From IMG/VR virus record IMGVR_UViG_3300046787_000408, positions 1 to 64,000 of that record: a DNA stretch of 64,000 nt, one strand, 5' to 3'. The position numbers were made by a program, and so were the translations under genes. Below the pieces are notes generated by a model that worked only from the letters and a program-made list of their open reading frames with translations, made no database searches and had not been told where the DNA came from. The stretch is from a virus. How positions within the stretch are numbered: position 1 is the stretch's first letter; each line of letters begins with the position of its first letter. Shown here one piece after another: positions 18,472 through 25,555 of the stretch.

Positions 18472-18499
18472 TTGACATCTGTGGCGTTTATGCTACAAT
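18472..18499 (+). promoter_or_regulatory. Sigma70-like early promoter of the gp55-gp46 operon
   Basis: TTGACA (18472-18477), a 16-nt spacer, then TACAAT (18494-18499): a full -35 and a 5-of-6 -10 for host sigma70. The gp55 ATG is only 9 nt downstream of the -10, so transcription would start about 2-4 nt before the ATG and the mRNA would be essentially leaderless. Confidence 0.75.
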
Positions 18500-18508
18500 A
18501 AGTACTAT

Positions 18509-19408
18509 ATGTCCTTAATCCCTAAACCTCCTGCCAAAGTAAACTATCTCAACAACCGAGATATCCTCAAAGAAATTCATCTCAGCAAAAATACCTACTG
18601 CTGGTATCGTGACAGAGACCTTGATCATCAATTTGATTTGATTCTGCCGTCAGTGGACAAGATCAATCAGCGCACTGTGGTAGAAGCACGTAAAAATCGT
18701 GCTGACCGTATCAAACGCGAAACAGGTGAAGTAATTGATCAAAAGAAAATTGCCAACACTGATCTAGTGTTTCGAATCACTGCTTGGGATCATATTCCCA
18801 AGGCACCCAAGAAAATAACCAAAGCCGAAGCCAAACGCAAAAAACTAGAAGACATCTTTGAACTAGAAGATGCTGTAACTGATGATCCATTGGCTGATCT
18901 TGTGGACGAACCTGTGCTGAACATGAACTATGTGCGACTGAATTTTCCGCCGTTTGAGCACTACAGACTAGACGAAGACAAGGTTCCTTTTATTGTGGGC
19001 CGCAGTCACTGGAAAGGCGATTTGGCCACAGGCGAGTTTTGTCGTGAACACGGTACTATGACTCGCAAGTTGGCCACTATGTTTATGAAACTGTGTGAGC
19101 GTTATGCCACACGCTCTAACTGGAGAGGATACACCTACAATGAAGAAATGCGTGGACAAGCCCTACTTCAACTATCACAGATTGGTCTTCAATTCGATGA
19201 GTCTAAGAGTCAGAATCCGTTTGCATACTATACGGCGGCTATTACAAACAGTTTTACACGTATCCTAAACATCGAAAAGAAAAATCAAAACATTCGCGAT
19301 GACATTTTGGAGATCAACGGTCTCAACCCATCATGGACACGCCAAAACTCCGGCAGCAAAAGCATGGCAGCTATGTCTGGTCCGGTTATTTCCAGCCTAG
19401 ATGAATAA
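18509..19408 (+). CDS. gp55: Late-transcription sigma factor gp55
   Basis: Phage sigma factor that directs host RNA polymerase to late promoters, 299 residues (T4: 185). The C-terminal half has the gp55 pattern: MTRKLATMFMKLCERYA, then YTYNEEMRGQALLQLSQIGL, the motif NPFAYYTAAITNSFTRILN (a sigma region 2-like helix for core binding and -10 recognition), and a basic tail. The N-terminal 130 residues include a Lys-rich segment (KITKAEAKRKKLEDIFELED), longer than in T4. It heads an operon of overlapping genes transcribed from a sigma70-like promoter, as expected for a factor needed before late genes. The many TATAAATA-like octamers in this window are its expected targets. The ATG was chosen because it is the first codon after the promoter. 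Confidence 0.92.
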   Translation: MSLIPKPPAKVNYLNNRDILKEIHLSKNTYCWYRDRDLDHQFDLILPSVDKINQRTVVEARKNRADRIKRETGEVIDQKKIANTDLVFRITAWDHIPKAPKKITKAEAKRKKLEDIFELEDAVTDDPLADLVDEPVLNMNYVRLNFPPFEHYRLDEDKVPFIVGRSHWKGDLATGEFCREHGTMTRKLATMFMKLCERYATRSNWRGYTYNEEMRGQALLQLSQIGLQFDESKSQNPFAYYTAAITNSFTRILNIEKKNQNIRDDILEINGLNPSWTRQNSGSKSMAAMSGPVISSLDE

Positions 19409-20291
19409 AACTCTACATCTAACTCACCCTGAATTTGATGTATCCTTGGTGCTTCCTGGGAGTGTGTTGTTGAATGATAGTACTCAACTGCTTTCGGGAC
19501 AGTGCTATCATACTTCCTTGGGAGATTTATCTGTACAAGAAGTGTTGTGCATCAGCAAGCAATTTGATGTTATAAATTTTATACCCGACAAGTTTGATGC
19601 TGACAGTTCCATCTACCACGAAACTGTTGTCATACTCAATTATTTGTCTCATAAAAAACCAGTAACTGGATACACACCTGTTGGTCAACAGGAATTTTTA
19701 TCACTGGATGTTCATGATCGATCTGATGGCCCAACAGTGTGGGTTTTTGGTTGCAGTCACAGCTATGGCGTAGGGCTAACGGCCGATCAAGAGAATTTTG
19801 GGCAACACATAAGTCAGCACACCAAGTTGCCATTGAAATTGGTAGCACAATCAGGTTCTAGTGTTCAATGGAGTTTGCGACATTTGATGCATGCCAACTT
19901 CCAAGAAGGAGATTTTGTAATCTGGCAACTTACATCTCCGGAACGCATCAGTTACGGGTACCCACCGTCAGAGCTTAGATTCTCTCAAGCAGTGAGTCGA
20001 CATTTGCTTGAAACGTACAATGATCAACAGCTATTGTTCAATCAGTTATCGTTGTTCAATCAAGGTGTACAACATTTAAGATGTCAGCCAGTCAAATTTG
20101 CAGTTATATCCATTAGTGGATCATCGCCGCTGTTTTATCCTTGTTTGACCGAATACAGCAAGCACCCAGAATTTTGTCATGTGCCAAATTACCTATTGGA
20201 TTTAGGAACAGATGGAGAACACATGGGTCCTTTGAGTCACAAGGCTCTTGCGCAATCCATACTGAATCATGTAAACTACAGCAATGAGTAA
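19401..20291 (+). CDS. SGNH/GDSL-like hydrolase domain protein
   Basis: 296 residues. After an N-terminal domain of about 110 residues without recognised motif, residues 113-124 read VWVFGCSHSYGV: the SGNH block I form often seen in phages (GxSHS with Ser119 as candidate nucleophile). Near the end DGEH at 271-274 supplies the Asp-x-x-His of block V. These suggest an esterase or acyl-hydrolase fold acting on sugar or lipid acyl groups; the substrate is unknown. Blocks II and III are less clear. It overlaps gp55 (8 nt) upstream and gp47 (8 nt) downstream, so translation is coupled in the early operon. Its base composition looks more AT-rich than gp47, a possible sign of acquisition. Confidence 0.75.
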   Translation: MNKTLHLTHPEFDVSLVLPGSVLLNDSTQLLSGQCYHTSLGDLSVQEVLCISKQFDVINFIPDKFDADSSIYHETVVILNYLSHKKPVTGYTPVGQQEFLSLDVHDRSDGPTVWVFGCSHSYGVGLTADQENFGQHISQHTKLPLKLVAQSGSSVQWSLRHLMHANFQEGDFVIWQLTSPERISYGYPPSELRFSQAVSRHLLETYNDQQLLFNQLSLFNQGVQHLRCQPVKFAVISISGSSPLFYPCLTEYSKHPEFCHVPNYLLDLGTDGEHMGPLSHKALAQSILNHVNYSNE

Positions 20292-21300
20292 TCTATTTAA
20301 AAAAGCCGCAATCTTTACCGACATCCACTTTGGCTTGAAGTCAAACTCAGTTCTTCACAACGAGGACTGTTTGGCGTTTGTCAAGTGGGCAACTGCCAAA
20401 GCAAAAGAGGAAGGTTGTGAAACCTGTTTGTTCTTGGGCGATTGGCACAACAATCGATCAACTATTAACATTGTCACACTCAACTACAGCTTACAATCCC
20501 TGGAGCACCTAAATGAGCATTTTGAACGTGTTTATTTTATTCCTGGTAACCATGATCTATATTATCGCGATAAACGTGACATTCAAAGCGTGGAGTTTGC
20601 AAAGCACCTCCCTAATGTTCAAATCTGTAATGATTGGTTCAGCGACGGTAATGTCACTATTGCCCCTTGGCTATGTGGAGACGATCATAAACGCCTGGCC
20701 AAACTAAAAGGCGATTACTTGTTTGGGCACTTTGAGCTGCCCGGTTATTTGATGAACGCAATGGTGGAGATGCCAGATCATGGGGAACTGCAACGAGATA
20801 GTCTTGGGGGATTTGGTCATGTGTTCACTGGGCACTTCCACAAGCGACAGACTAAAAAGAACATTACCTATATCGGTAATGCGTTCCCTCACAATTATGC
20901 AGACGCTGGTGACGACGAAAGAGGTCTCACTGTGTTGGAGTGGGGAAGAGCGCCTGAATTTCATGCTTGGCCTGCTCAACCAACATATCGTGTATATGGA
21001 CTCGCCAACCTTATTGACAACGCTGCAACACTTCTTAAGCCCAAAATGCATGTTAGAGTGAACCTAGATATTGAGATCAGTTACGAAGAAGCTAACTTTA
21101 TCAAGGAAACGTTTGTGCGGGACTACAATCTACGTGAGATGGCCCTGATTCCCAACAAGTCTGCAGGAGTAGATGAAGACATGGCACCTGGTGAAGTCAA
21201 GTTTGAATCAGTAGATCAGATTGTTACAGACCAGCTCACAAACATCGAATCTGAATTTTACGACAATAAACTCTTGCTCAAGATTTATCAAACATTATGA
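20284..21300 (+). CDS. gp47: Recombination endonuclease subunit gp47 (SbcD/Mre11-like)
   Basis: Metallophosphoesterase nuclease, 338 residues (T4 gp47: 339). Ordered metal-binding motifs are visible: FTDIHFG (residues 11-17), LFLGDWHNN (48-56), PGNHD (90-94), and later FGHFE and FTGHFHKRQ. With gp46 it forms the nuclease/ATPase that processes DNA ends for recombination-dependent replication and degrades host DNA. In T4, gp47 and gp46 are nearly adjacent. Here they are separated by two accessory genes but joined by overlapping start and stop codons. The ATG overlaps the end of the SGNH gene. Confidence 0.95.
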   Translation: MSNLFKKAAIFTDIHFGLKSNSVLHNEDCLAFVKWATAKAKEEGCETCLFLGDWHNNRSTINIVTLNYSLQSLEHLNEHFERVYFIPGNHDLYYRDKRDIQSVEFAKHLPNVQICNDWFSDGNVTIAPWLCGDDHKRLAKLKGDYLFGHFELPGYLMNAMVEMPDHGELQRDSLGGFGHVFTGHFHKRQTKKNITYIGNAFPHNYADAGDDERGLTVLEWGRAPEFHAWPAQPTYRVYGLANLIDNAATLLKPKMHVRVNLDIEISYEEANFIKETFVRDYNLREMALIPNKSAGVDEDMAPGEVKFESVDQIVTDQLTNIESEFYDNKLLLKIYQTL

Positions 21301-22694
21301 TTGTTTCATTGAATGCAATTTCTAAAAATTTTAGACTCTTCAATAATGATGAGTGGCTTTCACGCGATCTACTAACTGAATTTGTTGATCATTGGAAACT
21401 GATTTTTGTTGAAAAAAATCAGTTAAAAGCTGGAGATAAAATAGGTCTAGGATTTGCACTCACTGACATATATTATTTCGGCGCACTTATTGCTGCTGCA
21501 GAACTTGGACTCAAGTTGGTTGTGCTCGATGTGTCGTCAACAAAAAACGCAACCTCTGAATATTTTTTCCCCCTTGATCTTTTTGTGTCTGGTCCCATGT
21601 TGTCACCTGACAAACATCAGTATTACAGTACAGTCAGTTTACAAACTGAATTTTGGCATGTATGGGACAATTACACTACTACGTCTGACGGTTGGTGGGA
21701 TCATTCAACTAGATCTAGTATAGACCAGGATCTTGCGCTATTGTCATGCACTAGCTCAGGAACTACCAATCGTCCAAAAAAAGTTGAGCATAGTCACAAA
21801 TTTATATTCAACATATCTAAAAGAAATTGTAATCTGTTGAAATTCCGGGGCAATGTAATGCATATTAGAAATTTGCATCATGGCAGCAGTATTGCAACGT
21901 ACTTCCTTCCTTCACTAATGTCTGATGAGTGCACCGGACACTATGTTTTCAATGTAGAATCCCAATATCAAACAGCAGACCTGGTTCGGTACTGTGCTGA
22001 TCACGATATCAATCATATACAATTTCCATATGTAAATTTTGCTGAACAATTTTTAAAACAGGCAGTTTTACAAAATATCAAGTTCAATGATCTTACAATA
22101 TATGTACTATCATACATCAATCCGGCCTGGCAATCATTGATCCGACAGTGCGGCTTGGTAAAAATTGTCAGTATATTTGGTTGCAACGAAACTAGTGGGC
22201 CTTTGTTTACTAACAGTCTACAATCGAATCAGGTAGAGTTTGATTGCAAAATTTTTGTGGCCCTTGATGACTTTTATCAATTTGATTTTAATCAGCAAGA
22301 TCAACTAGTAGTGCATATCAATGACTACAACACATCTATTGTGATGCAGGATTCTTTCAGTCGGAACAATAATGTTTTTACCCACCATGGCCGCAATGAT
22401 CTTGTACGAATCAATGATGTTGAGGTTGATCTGTTTTGGATTTTGGATCTAGCAAAGAACGAACAGATCAATGCACAAATTGTACTAGACCGAGATCGGG
22501 AAAAACTATATCTAGCTGTTTGGGATCAAACTGACTTACAGTCAGTAACTGATCAGCTAAACGATAAGATTATTGATCGTTACAGCAACAAAGTAGTTAT
22601 TAGTTCTGCTATGCACTTAACCATGGACGAGTGTAGCTACGGAATCAAATTAGACCATGAAATCATACGAAATATTTTTCGAAAAAACATATGA
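21297..22694 (+). CDS. Adenylate-forming (ANL / AMP-binding) enzyme
   Basis: 465 residues with the signatures of the acyl-CoA synthetase / NRPS adenylation / luciferase superfamily. A3 phosphate loop LSCTSSGTTNRPKK is at residues 149-162, A5-like IFGCNETSGP at 293-302, and A7/A8-like HHGRNDLVRIND at 363-374. The C-terminal small domain of about 90 residues ends SYGIKLDHEIIRNIF, whose Lys may be the A10 catalytic lysine. Such enzymes activate a carboxylate as an acyl-adenylate and pass it to a thiol or amine; the substrate cannot be read here. It is about 50-100 residues shorter than typical members, mainly at the N-terminus. The ATG overlaps the gp47 stop (ATGA) and the last bases overlap the next gene. 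Hand counts of two 60-nt blocks give 23-27% GC against 43% in gp47, which suggests transfer. Confidence 0.82.
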   Translation: MIVSLNAISKNFRLFNNDEWLSRDLLTEFVDHWKLIFVEKNQLKAGDKIGLGFALTDIYYFGALIAAAELGLKLVVLDVSSTKNATSEYFFPLDLFVSGPMLSPDKHQYYSTVSLQTEFWHVWDNYTTTSDGWWDHSTRSSIDQDLALLSCTSSGTTNRPKKVEHSHKFIFNISKRNCNLLKFRGNVMHIRNLHHGSSIATYFLPSLMSDECTGHYVFNVESQYQTADLVRYCADHDINHIQFPYVNFAEQFLKQAVLQNIKFNDLTIYVLSYINPAWQSLIRQCGLVKIVSIFGCNETSGPLFTNSLQSNQVEFDCKIFVALDDFYQFDFNQQDQLVVHINDYNTSIVMQDSFSRNNNVFTHHGRNDLVRINDVEVDLFWILDLAKNEQINAQIVLDRDREKLYLAVWDQTDLQSVTDQLNDKIIDRYSNKVVISSAMHLTMDECSYGIKLDHEIIRNIFRKNI

Positions 22695-22939
22695 AAAAAC
22701 ATCAACACTTGTATAACAGCAACGAAAGCTACAAATCACATTTGGTATGGGCAATAACTTCAGGTGTCCAGCTGATATGGGCTGGCATCATGAGTCTGCT
22801 TCATGCAATTTATCCTGGCTGGTTCCCGTTTGGCGCTGCAAAAACAGTCATTGACTTATATTACAAAAGACTGCATAATCATGTTAATGACGATTATCAA
22901 CGCTATATCCAACAAGTTAAAAATCAAAAGAAATCATGA
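22691..22939 (+). CDS. Small putative inner-membrane protein (DUF6356-like)
   Basis: 82 residues. Residues 18-45 form one or two hydrophobic helices (LVWAITSGVQLIWAGIMSLL then HAIYPGWFPF), followed by an amphipathic segment AAKTVIDLYYKRLHNHV and a Lys-rich tail. The pattern N-ESY-x-x-H, hydrophobic helix, LLHAI-x-P, resembles the small proteobacterial family I remember as DUF6356, function unknown; this is from memory, not a search. It sits between the ANL enzyme (4-nt overlap) and gp46 (4-nt overlap, ATGA), so it is translated with them. It could anchor the ANL product or partner to the membrane, which is speculation. Confidence 0.72.
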   Translation: MKKHQHLYNSNESYKSHLVWAITSGVQLIWAGIMSLLHAIYPGWFPFGAAKTVIDLYYKRLHNHVNDDYQRYIQQVKNQKKS

Positions 22940-25017
22940 TCCAAATTAAAAAACTCACTGTCAAGAACTTTATGAGCGTGGGCAATGCCACGCAAGGTAT
23001 TGACTTTGATCGCAGAGACTTAACACTGGTACTAGGGGAAAATTTAGATCTTGGTGGCGACGGTAGTCGCAACGGCACCGGCAAAACCACTATCATCAAT
23101 GCTCTCAGCTATGCTTTGTATGGTAATGCCCTGTCAAACATTCGCAAAGACAATCTTGTGAACAAAACCAACGGCAAGAACATGTTGGTAAGTCTGGATT
23201 TCAGCGTAGGCGGACAGGACTACAGAATTGAACGTGGACGCAAACCCAACGTTCTAAAGTTCTATGTGAATCACGAAGCACAAGCTGCTACAGACGAAGC
23301 ACAAGGCGAAAACAAAGAAACACAAGAAGCCATTGAACGTGTGATGGGCATGAGTCACGACATGTTCAAACATGTGTTGGCTCTAAATACCTATACCGAA
23401 CCGTTCCTGAGTTTGAAAGCCAACGACCAACGTGCTATCATTGAACAGTTGTTGGGTATCACACTGTTGAGCGAACGTGCTGATCGTATCAAAGAACTCA
23501 ACCGGCAAACCAAAGATGCTATCTCGCAAGAAGAATTTAGAATACGAGCTGAACAAGAAGCAAACAAACGTATCGAAGAACAGATCGAAAGTTTGCGTCG
23601 TCGCCAAGTGATGTGGCAGAAAAAATACGACAGTGATCTACAGAGCCTGGTTGTGCAATACGATGACTTGTCAAAGATCAACATCGAAGTAGAATTACAA
23701 GCACACCGAGACCTAGCAGTTTGGAGTGATCAAAAGAAACAACAGGAAACCTACAACTCGTTGGTGGCCCGTAGTACCGCTTGGAAACAAAAGCAACAAG
23801 CTGAATGGCAAGCTGCTGGCAGTGCGTACTTGGACAAAAATCGCATCAACATTGATATTGAACTTGAAGCCTGGGCACAGTTGTCTGCTTACAATCAAAA
23901 GTCCAAAGACATTGCTGAATTACAAAAGCTAATTGAACGCTGTGTTCAAGACGAGAAGAAAGAAACCAAGCTAGTAGAAAAACTACGAGCCGAAATCCAA
24001 GAACTCAAGAATCACAAATGTTATGCTTGTGGTCAAGACTTTCATGACGCCAATCACGAAAGTGTGTTGGTCTCCAAGGAAAAAGCCCTTCAAGAAGCTG
24101 CACTACAGGCCCTGGCCACTAACACTCAATGGGTCGAACATACTGATGCTTTGCTAAAGCTAGGGGAGTTGGGCACAAAGCCAGTTACTCATTACAAAAC
24201 TGAAGCAGAAGCAATTCGCCATGCTGGCGAGTTAGCCAGCTTGAAACAGGCCATGGATGCTAAAGAAGCGGAAGTCAACCCGTTTGCTGAACAGTTGGCC
24301 GAGCTGGAAGAAGTTGTGCCTGGACCACAACCAGTCACACACTACGACACCGAAGCTGAAGCTATCAAACATTCTAGTCAAGTGGCCAGTTTGTTAGCAC
24401 AGATTACCAACAAGCATGCTGAAACTGATCCTTACACTGAACAGATTGATGAAATGACTGGGCAAGCTTTGCAACCGGTCAGTTACAGTCATCTTAATGA
24501 ACTTACACGAGTTCAAGACCATCAAGACTTTTTGCTCAAACTGCTGACTTCTAAAGACTCATTTGTTCGCAAAAAGATTATTGATCAAAACTTGAGCTAT
24601 CTCAACAGCCGACTCACACATTACTTGGATCGCATGGGCCTCCCGCACACAGTTAAATTCATGAATGACTTGTCAGTCAACATTGAAGAACTGGGTCGAG
24701 AACTGGACTTTGACAATCTTTCAAGAGGTGAACGTACCAGATTGATTCTCAGCATGAGCTGGGCGTTTCGTGATGTGTGGGAAAGTTTGTATTACCCCAT
24801 TAACTTGATGTTTATTGATGAACTGATCGACAACGGACTAGACACAGCCGGAGTGGAGAATGCACTGGGCTTGTTGAAACGCATGAGTCGCGAACGCAAC
24901 AAGAGCGTGTGGCTTGTGAGTCACCGAGACGAACTAGCCGGACGAGTTGAAAACATACTCAAGGTAGTCAAAGAGAACGGCTTCACAAATTACAATACAG
25001 ACGTAGATGTTGCTTGA
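22936..25017 (+). CDS. gp46: Recombination endonuclease subunit gp46 (SbcC/Rad50-like ATPase)
   Basis: SMC-type ATPase, 693 residues (T4: 560). Walker A GSRNGTGKTT ends near residue 52 with Lys50. Long coiled coils flank a zinc hook CYACG (Cys362 and Cys365). The ABC signature LSRGERTRL is near 595 and Walker B LMFIDEL near 623-629, followed by the His switch LVSHRDEL. Partner of gp47 in end resection and recombination-dependent replication. Between hook and signature there are two related segments, each with PVTHY-x-TEAEAI, an internal duplication in the coiled-coil arm that makes it longer than T4 gp46. The ATG overlaps the preceding stop. A perfect 11-bp hairpin overlaps its own stop codon. 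Confidence 0.95.
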   Translation: MIQIKKLTVKNFMSVGNATQGIDFDRRDLTLVLGENLDLGGDGSRNGTGKTTIINALSYALYGNALSNIRKDNLVNKTNGKNMLVSLDFSVGGQDYRIERGRKPNVLKFYVNHEAQAATDEAQGENKETQEAIERVMGMSHDMFKHVLALNTYTEPFLSLKANDQRAIIEQLLGITLLSERADRIKELNRQTKDAISQEEFRIRAEQEANKRIEEQIESLRRRQVMWQKKYDSDLQSLVVQYDDLSKINIEVELQAHRDLAVWSDQKKQQETYNSLVARSTAWKQKQQAEWQAAGSAYLDKNRINIDIELEAWAQLSAYNQKSKDIAELQKLIERCVQDEKKETKLVEKLRAEIQELKNHKCYACGQDFHDANHESVLVSKEKALQEAALQALATNTQWVEHTDALLKLGELGTKPVTHYKTEAEAIRHAGELASLKQAMDAKEAEVNPFAEQLAELEEVVPGPQPVTHYDTEAEAIKHSSQVASLLAQITNKHAETDPYTEQIDEMTGQALQPVSYSHLNELTRVQDHQDFLLKLLTSKDSFVRKKIIDQNLSYLNSRLTHYLDRMGLPHTVKFMNDLSVNIEELGRELDFDNLSRGERTRLILSMSWAFRDVWESLYYPINLMFIDELIDNGLDTAGVENALGLLKRMSRERNKSVWLVSHRDELAGRVENILKVVKENGFTNYNTDVDVA

Positions 25018-25126: not shown

Positions 25127-25555
25127 ATGACTTGGTTATATCAAAACACCCCAGTTGAGACATTACCCGAAGAGTGTATTGGATTTGTATACTTAATCAC
25201 CAATAATCTATCTGGACGCAAGTACATAGGCAAAAAACTAGCAAAATTTAGCAAGACCACTTACAAAACAGTCAAGCAAAAAAACGGCATCAAAAAGAAA
25301 AAGAAGGTTAGATCAAAAGTCGATTCAGACTGGCGCGACTACTATGGTAGCAGCGAGCATCTAACCGCAGACATCGCACAATTAGGCACCGAAAACTTTA
25401 CCAGAGAAATACTTTACTATTGCACATCAAAAGCGCAGTGTTCGTACATTGAAGCTCGCGAGCAGTTTGATCGTAAAGTATTAGAATCAACAGATTATTA
25501 CAACGGCCATATCTCGGTTAGAGTACATGGCTCACATATCATAAACAAAATTTAA
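25127..25555 (+). CDS. GIY-YIG family endonuclease (Seg-like)
   Basis: 142 residues. The GIY-YIG core is seen as GFVYLITNNLSGRKYIGKK (residues 18-36): FVY stands for GIY and KYIG for YIG, followed by a basic stretch. WRDYYGSSEHL is at about 82-92, and a candidate catalytic Glu lies in YIEAREQFD at about 107-115. This is the free-standing Seg-type arrangement of T4-like phages, which cut related genomes at a nearby site and spread themselves. It lies just downstream of gp46 and upstream of a 440-nt non-coding structured region. Start is the ATG at 25127, after a purine stretch without a strong Shine-Dalgarno site. Confidence 0.82.
   Translation: MTWLYQNTPVETLPEECIGFVYLITNNLSGRKYIGKKLAKFSKTTYKTVKQKNGIKKKKKVRSKVDSDWRDYYGSSEHLTADIAQLGTENFTREILYYCTSKAQCSYIEAREQFDRKVLESTDYYNGHISVRVHGSHIINKI

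Follow-up and report, generated by a model that had tools for sequence, protein, structure and literature searches.

An adenylate-forming enzyme and a DUF6356 protein form a recurrent two-gene module carried as cargo in the gp55-gp47-gp46 operon of a T4-related phage

Virus record IMGVR_UViG_3300046787_000408 comprises 299,983 bases (~300 kb), and its first 64,000 nt, referred to here as the window, contain six tightly packed plus-strand genes (18509-25017) in which an adenylate-forming enzyme of the ANL superfamily and a small DUF6356 protein are interleaved with phage recombination genes. In order, the cluster encodes the late sigma factor gp55 (18509-19408; PHROGs phrog_12791, 4.8e-74), an SGNH-like hydrolase or acyltransferase (19401-20291), the SbcD-like recombination nuclease subunit gp47 (20284-21300; phrog_100, 9.3e-62), the ANL enzyme (21297-22694), the DUF6356 protein of 82 amino acids (aa) and putative membrane location (22691-22939), and the SbcC-like recombination nuclease subunit gp46 (22936-25017; phrog_77, 8.9e-108). 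gp55, gp47 and gp46 are core genes; the SGNH-like gene occupies the gp55|gp47 gap, and ANL and DUF6356, the first and second gene of the module described below, together occupy the gp47|gp46 gap. A first-pass annotation of the sequence had reported overlaps of 4-8 nt at the operon junctions, and these are indeed present: 8 nt at 19401-19408 and 20284-20291, and 4 nt at 21297-21300, 22691-22694 and 22936-22939, with the last three (gp47/ANL, ANL/DUF6356 and DUF6356/gp46) reading ATGA.

The ANL enzyme is divergent in sequence. Its match to the Pfam AMP-binding family is weak (2.9e-6, 26.8 bits vs. a cut-off of 29.9), and it is only 10-15% identical to solved members of the superfamily, which comprises acyl-CoA synthetases, nonribosomal peptide synthetase (NRPS) adenylation domains and luciferase. 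What it shares with them are the fold and motifs A3, A5, A7, A8 and A10. The motifs A3, A5 and A8 and a possible A10 lysine had been read from the sequence in the first pass; all of them are present, the A10 lysine being K451, and the active site is not degenerate. Among seven aligned ANLs of the DUF6356-paired type, A3 (T152-SSGTT-xx-PK161, that is TSSGTTxxPK; 21750-21779), A5 (GCNET, with E298; 22176-22199), the A7 aspartate D352 (22350-22352), the A8 hinge G365-R366-x-D368 (GRND; 22389-22400) and A10 (GIK451xD; lysine codon 22647-22649) are invariant. Outside this group, the equivalent of E298 is lost in an ANL of the TctC-paired type (L008; L numbers denote viral loci) and the A7 aspartate in L083.

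Structure prediction followed by structure search recovered the ANL fold: the AlphaFold2 model (pLDDT 76.9, with low confidence over the C-terminal 35 residues) gave 600 matches in the PDB at E <= 0.001 (best E 4.9e-19), and all 50 among the matches listed are ANL enzymes, spanning NRPS adenylation domains and acyl-CoA synthetases. Relative to its nearest relative, that of L002 (68% identical), the gene has a dN of 0.25 with saturated dS and is therefore under purifying selection. Motifs, fold and selection together lead to the prediction that the enzyme makes an acyl-adenylate. A phosphopantetheine carrier (PP-binding) domain was not detected in the 300-kb record. The GC content of the gene is unusually low, as had been pointed out earlier (36.6%; gp47 has 43.3% and the window 45.0%; only 2 of 1253 gene-sized windows are equally low), with the previously quoted 23-27% applying to its poorest 60-nt blocks alone. 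In a separate ANL branch (L101-L116; e.g. L101:6796-9047), two truncated ANL proteins (~335 and ~412 aa) are encoded in tandem; they seem to lack a complete C-terminal domain and possibly represent a split or heterodimeric enzyme.

The small protein belongs to Pfam family DUF6356 (PF19883; 8.4e-12, 45.5 bits vs. a curated cut-off of 24.4), and the small ANL-partner proteins of its relatives likewise exceed that cut-off. It consists of a single conserved helix of moderate hydrophobicity and, after it, a conserved polar stretch that is also helical. The gene is under purifying selection (dN 0.19, dS 1.16). The window protein possesses a single borderline hydrophobic segment (maximum KD19 1.60); across members the value ranges from 1.3 to 2.0, near the threshold, and the segment contains a conserved Arg or Gln. 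Judged from these sequence features, association with the membrane is likely. Comparison of the DUF6356 sequence with solved structures returned a chance match to RuvC only. A second DUF6356-like match in the genome (86896-87018, 18.3 bits) contains stops and, after inspection of its DNA, was treated as spurious. DUF6356 is an uncharacterised bacterial family, detected for instance in Caulobacter vibrioides. In contrast to the phage copies, which are paired with ANL, the one lone copy retrieved in a plasmid search (Skermanella rosea) has no annotated ANL nearby.

A search with the ANL family profile yielded 36 viral loci, several of them with an 80-90-aa gene assigned to DUF6356 by Pfam 3′ of ANL. 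In the reverse search, with DUF6356 as the sole bait, 37 viral loci were retrieved, and ANL was immediately adjacent in 35 of them, usually overlapping. When grouped at 90% ANL identity, 33 of the 35 paired loci together with the window represent 21 lineages (L131 and L138 are the other two loci). The pairs are found at many genome positions, most of them outside the gp55-gp47-gp46 operon. Given this adjacency in 35 of 37 loci, across 21 lineages and in many positions, ANL and DUF6356 constitute a real two-gene module. In one lineage (L139-L141) the order is reversed, DUF6356 preceding ANL, which favours function over shared descent of one arrangement. The phages carrying the module are uncultured and mostly aquatic. 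Directly 3′ of the pair, two loci encode a protein of the tryptophan-halogenase family (L087:11684-12925, Pfam 3e-59; L158:826-2046). A solitary DUF6356 gene lies at L126:5992-6234, in a 100-kb record in which no ANL was found; by eye, this phage also encodes Hsp20-, ClpS- and ClpP-like proteins.

Neither ANL nor DUF6356 had a match in 50,697 phage records, the few DUF6356 matches being at chance level, and the pair was absent from every cultured phage searched. PHROGs contains no family for either gene, and no ANL relative was found in plasmid records. Two GTDB scans for cellular relatives with the ANL and DUF6356 profiles gave matches of which none was confirmed, although absence is unproven with such a degenerate-pattern scan. 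In the papers searched we found no description of a phage ANL or of the ANL-DUF6356 combination, and DUF6356 itself in one unrelated paper only. The first-pass annotation knew of no described T4-like cassette of this kind. The parts (the ANL superfamily, DUF6356 and T4-like cargo) are known, while their pairing and its wide spread appear to be new.

The identity of the partner follows the ANL phylogeny, even within the same genomic slot. The ANLs of the window and L002 fall into an 18-row clade (support 97/98) with DUF6356 in every member, whereas in a sister clade (support 100/100) a TctC/Bug tricarboxylate receptor (TctC Pfam 5e-33) replaces DUF6356. TctC-paired ANLs reside in the gp47|gp46 slot of L008, L095 and L097; the order is turned round in L092 and L119, the latter carrying an ANL-TctC-ANL triplet (L119:9992-13903) in that slot. 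A tctA domain match has been noted on a SUP05 virus contig (PMC4164917), and TctC/Bug receptors of the tripartite tricarboxylate type also occur in phages; the window ANL adjoins DUF6356 and no TctC. Because a periplasmic carboxylate receptor stands in the partner position of the sister clade, we prefer a role for the module in carboxylate supply and activation.

The third accessory gene of the operon behaves differently. In the SGNH-like protein, Ser119 (codon 19755-19757), Gly152, Asp271 (20211-20213) and His274 (20220-20222), which represent blocks I, II and V, are invariant across 13 sequences, and TesA, CE2 esterases and PatB are among the best PDB matches to its SGNH-type fold (E 4e-5 to 6e-4). 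The block III Asn (GxND) is missing and replaced by WQLTSPER with an invariant R182; hence the name SGNH-like, rather than SGNH sensu stricto. The first-pass annotation had united this gene with ANL and DUF6356 in one early acyl-modification pathway, in which the acid would be activated, transferred or trimmed, and handled at the membrane. In line with such a pathway, all three genes are present in the window, an SGNH gene adjoins ANL in L026 and lies nearby in L095, L098, L131 and L142, and the structural neighbours of the SGNH-like protein include an acyl-CoA thioesterase and an O-acetyltransferase. However, co-occurrence of SGNH and ANL above background was not found among 84 lineages (4/10 vs. 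16/74, Fisher p=0.24), the window SGNH family fills the gp55|gp47 gap without ANL in L004, L005, L019 and L058, and ANL+DUF6356 occurs without SGNH in L002/L003, where an unrelated gene occupies that gap. Moreover, the 300-kb record holds at least five SGNH loci, so that an SGNH gene near any other gene is unsurprising. Thus, of the proposed three-gene coupling, the link between ANL and the small hydrophobic protein stands, as the two stay paired in other phages, and the link to SGNH does not: the SGNH-like gene is a separate passenger, independent of ANL and DUF6356, and we consider the common pathway improbable.

We surveyed 80 gp47-bearing records, taken from a larger set, for insertions at the junctions of the operon (the window is included in the counts). 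The gp55|gp47 gap was filled in 35 of 79 cases, gp47|gp46 in 48 of 81, and the gap between gp46 and a conserved GIY-YIG-type protein in 49 of 70; this third slot is empty in the window, where the GIY-YIG-type gene (25127-25555, plus strand) forms its boundary. Filling of the first slot was not found to be linked to filling of the second (17/17/28/15, p=0.24). Of 33 empty gp47|gp46 sites, 26 are 4-nt overlaps reading ATGA; filled sites often keep ATGA joints. The cargo has entered neighbouring junctions as individual, seamlessly joined inserts of 1-3 genes and includes SGNH-like proteins, radical SAM/SPASM proteins, ANLs, 2-oxoglutarate (2OG) oxygenases, methyltransferases, TctC and HNH-like or GIY-YIG endonucleases. 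The location of ANL+DUF6356 in the recombination operon is incidental; with most pairs elsewhere and the junctions serving as general cargo slots, the connection to recombination suggested in the first pass is not upheld.

PA5oct, 121Q and XaC1, which in gp47 (46-49% identity) come closest among cultured phages, have the bare operon. T4 carries genes at both the first and the second junction, namely a-gt, mobB, a-gt.2-5 and 47.1 (between 55 and 47) and 46.1 and 46.2 (between 47 and 46), with 4-nt overlaps at 47/46.2 and 46.1/46; mobB has been listed at a-gt (PMC2988022). Gene order and the two junctions are thus alike, whereas the cargo differs, T4 carrying a DNA glucosyltransferase and a homing endonuclease and the window predicted carboxylate-activating and SGNH-like enzymes. 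Hyperplastic regions, in which variable host-adaptation genes lie among conserved core genes, have been published elsewhere in the genomes of T4-like phages (PMC2984593, g15-g18 region of cyanomyoviruses; PMC2993671); unlike these, the window cargo sits inside the recombination operon, and relatives with the bare operon exist. Endonuclease genes, HNH-type (by eye) or GIY-YIG (SegE-like), were noted in the gp47|gp46 and gp55|gp47 slots of L014, L023 and L062 and of L050 and L052. Their presence in some slots suggests that cargo may be exchanged by homing combined with recombination between the conserved flanking genes. For the commonest cargo family (L002:8104-8994 and 31 similar proteins of ~300 aa, with starts like MTIAIAFNGGGYGTYLEW), Pfam gave no significant match; by eye only, it looks sulfotransferase-like.

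As a-gt lies between 47 and 55 in T4, the genes inserted in the window might act on phage DNA or a nucleotide, as the T4 alpha-glucosyltransferase does from its slot, a target that the first-pass annotation had also considered. Against this, DUF6356 is membrane-like, most pairs are far from DNA-metabolism genes, the slots hold cargo of several kinds, substrate-binding and SGNH proteins among them, and the recurrent neighbours at other loci (fibre-like, sugar-nucleotide, 2OG-oxygenase and radical SAM genes) are not nucleotide-synthesis or DNA-modifying genes; we regard this function as highly improbable.

Those neighbours point in another direction. In 10-12 of the 21 lineages, the pair belongs to an island that also holds a tail-fibre-like gene and genes for UDP-glucose dehydrogenase, NAD epimerase, 2OG oxygenases of the Asp/Asn-hydroxylase type, radical SAM proteins and aminotransferases. 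The pair could therein serve as a tailoring step in surface or tail-fibre decoration, the ANL-activated acid being joined to an amino-sugar or a protein side chain of the virion or host envelope; similar genes also make up other cargo of the slots. Yet in the window and in L002 the pair is flanked by core recombination genes, TctC as the partner in the sister clade is unsuited to sugar or fibre decoration, and no glycosyltransferase was seen consistently adjacent, which leaves decoration an unlikely, if conceivable, role.

Counter-defence and superinfection-exclusion systems typically combine an enzyme and a small membrane protein. The module might accordingly act in that capacity, with DUF6356 acting on the membrane and ANL making or consuming a small signal, and the DUF6356 protein at L117:11352-11597 has a weak PADLOC match to PycTM (6.8e-4). 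The size of that match, however, is probably what shared hydrophobic composition would produce, the window DUF6356 has no PADLOC match, and catalytic ANLs are, to our knowledge, not a described anti-defence class. A counter-defence function therefore seems very unlikely.

Expression of the cluster may begin at a promoter-like site immediately upstream of gp55 (TTGACA-16-TACAAT with a TG extended -10; 18472-18499, plus strand). It is a strong sigma70-type match, the best in the region (11/12 positions), and ends 10 nt upstream of the gp55 start; as a consensus match only, it is likely the operon promoter, and its sigma70-type extended -10 makes early expression possible. Divergent from the operon, the minus strand encodes a 281-aa protein of extreme Gln and Ala content (window:17591-18436). 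The 300-kb record (G000) as a whole contains twelve radical SAM domain matches.

Taken together, we favour, with a probability of roughly 55%, a core operon whose junctions act as cargo slots and which has taken up two independent passengers, the SGNH-like gene and ANL+DUF6356 as a membrane-associated carboxylate-activating module. ANL would convert a carboxylic acid and ATP to an acyl-adenylate and may transfer the acyl moiety to a host acceptor such as CoA, a phage carrier protein not having been found in the genome; in this respect, and in its near-constant small partner, the phage enzyme differs from the ANL superfamily at large. DUF6356 could hold ANL at the inner membrane, or deliver a membrane-borne or freshly imported acid, and activation might trap the acid within the infected cell or feed envelope acylation. 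The pair presumably moves as a unit and would have entered the slot because slots accept seamless ATGA-joined genes, so that it need not relate to recombination.

Several observations weigh against this proposal. The structure matches of ANL span amino-acid, aryl and fatty-acyl activators and single out no one substrate class. DUF6356 could, given its near-threshold hydropathy and the Arg or Gln conserved within its segment, be peripheral or soluble, and its bacterial role offers no hint to a function in phages. Three DUF6356 genes are unpaired (those of L126 and L147, the two exceptions among the 37 loci, and a second copy in the L086 genome). Finally, no transporter subunit was noticed beside TctC in the stretches seen.

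A more specific version, which we put forward tentatively as possible but doubtful, sees in the pair a portable acid-capture device common to many lineages: DUF6356 would act as a membrane subunit that captures or imports a carboxylic acid, ANL would adenylate it on the spot, and the sister clade would do likewise with its periplasmic tricarboxylate receptor. If true, this would be the first biochemical role for DUF6356.

The results define a two-part phage gene module that recurs in aquatic phages and is missing from PHROGs and the cultured phage records searched. The uncharacterised DUF6356 thereby gains a concrete partner, with which it can be tested jointly. Within a highly conserved recombination operon, three junctions in a row emerge as permanent docking sites for single enzymes. 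Two of these sites match the a-gt/mobB and 46.1/46.2 places of T4, and by comparing empty with filled sites one can directly observe how T4-related phages exchange accessory genes.

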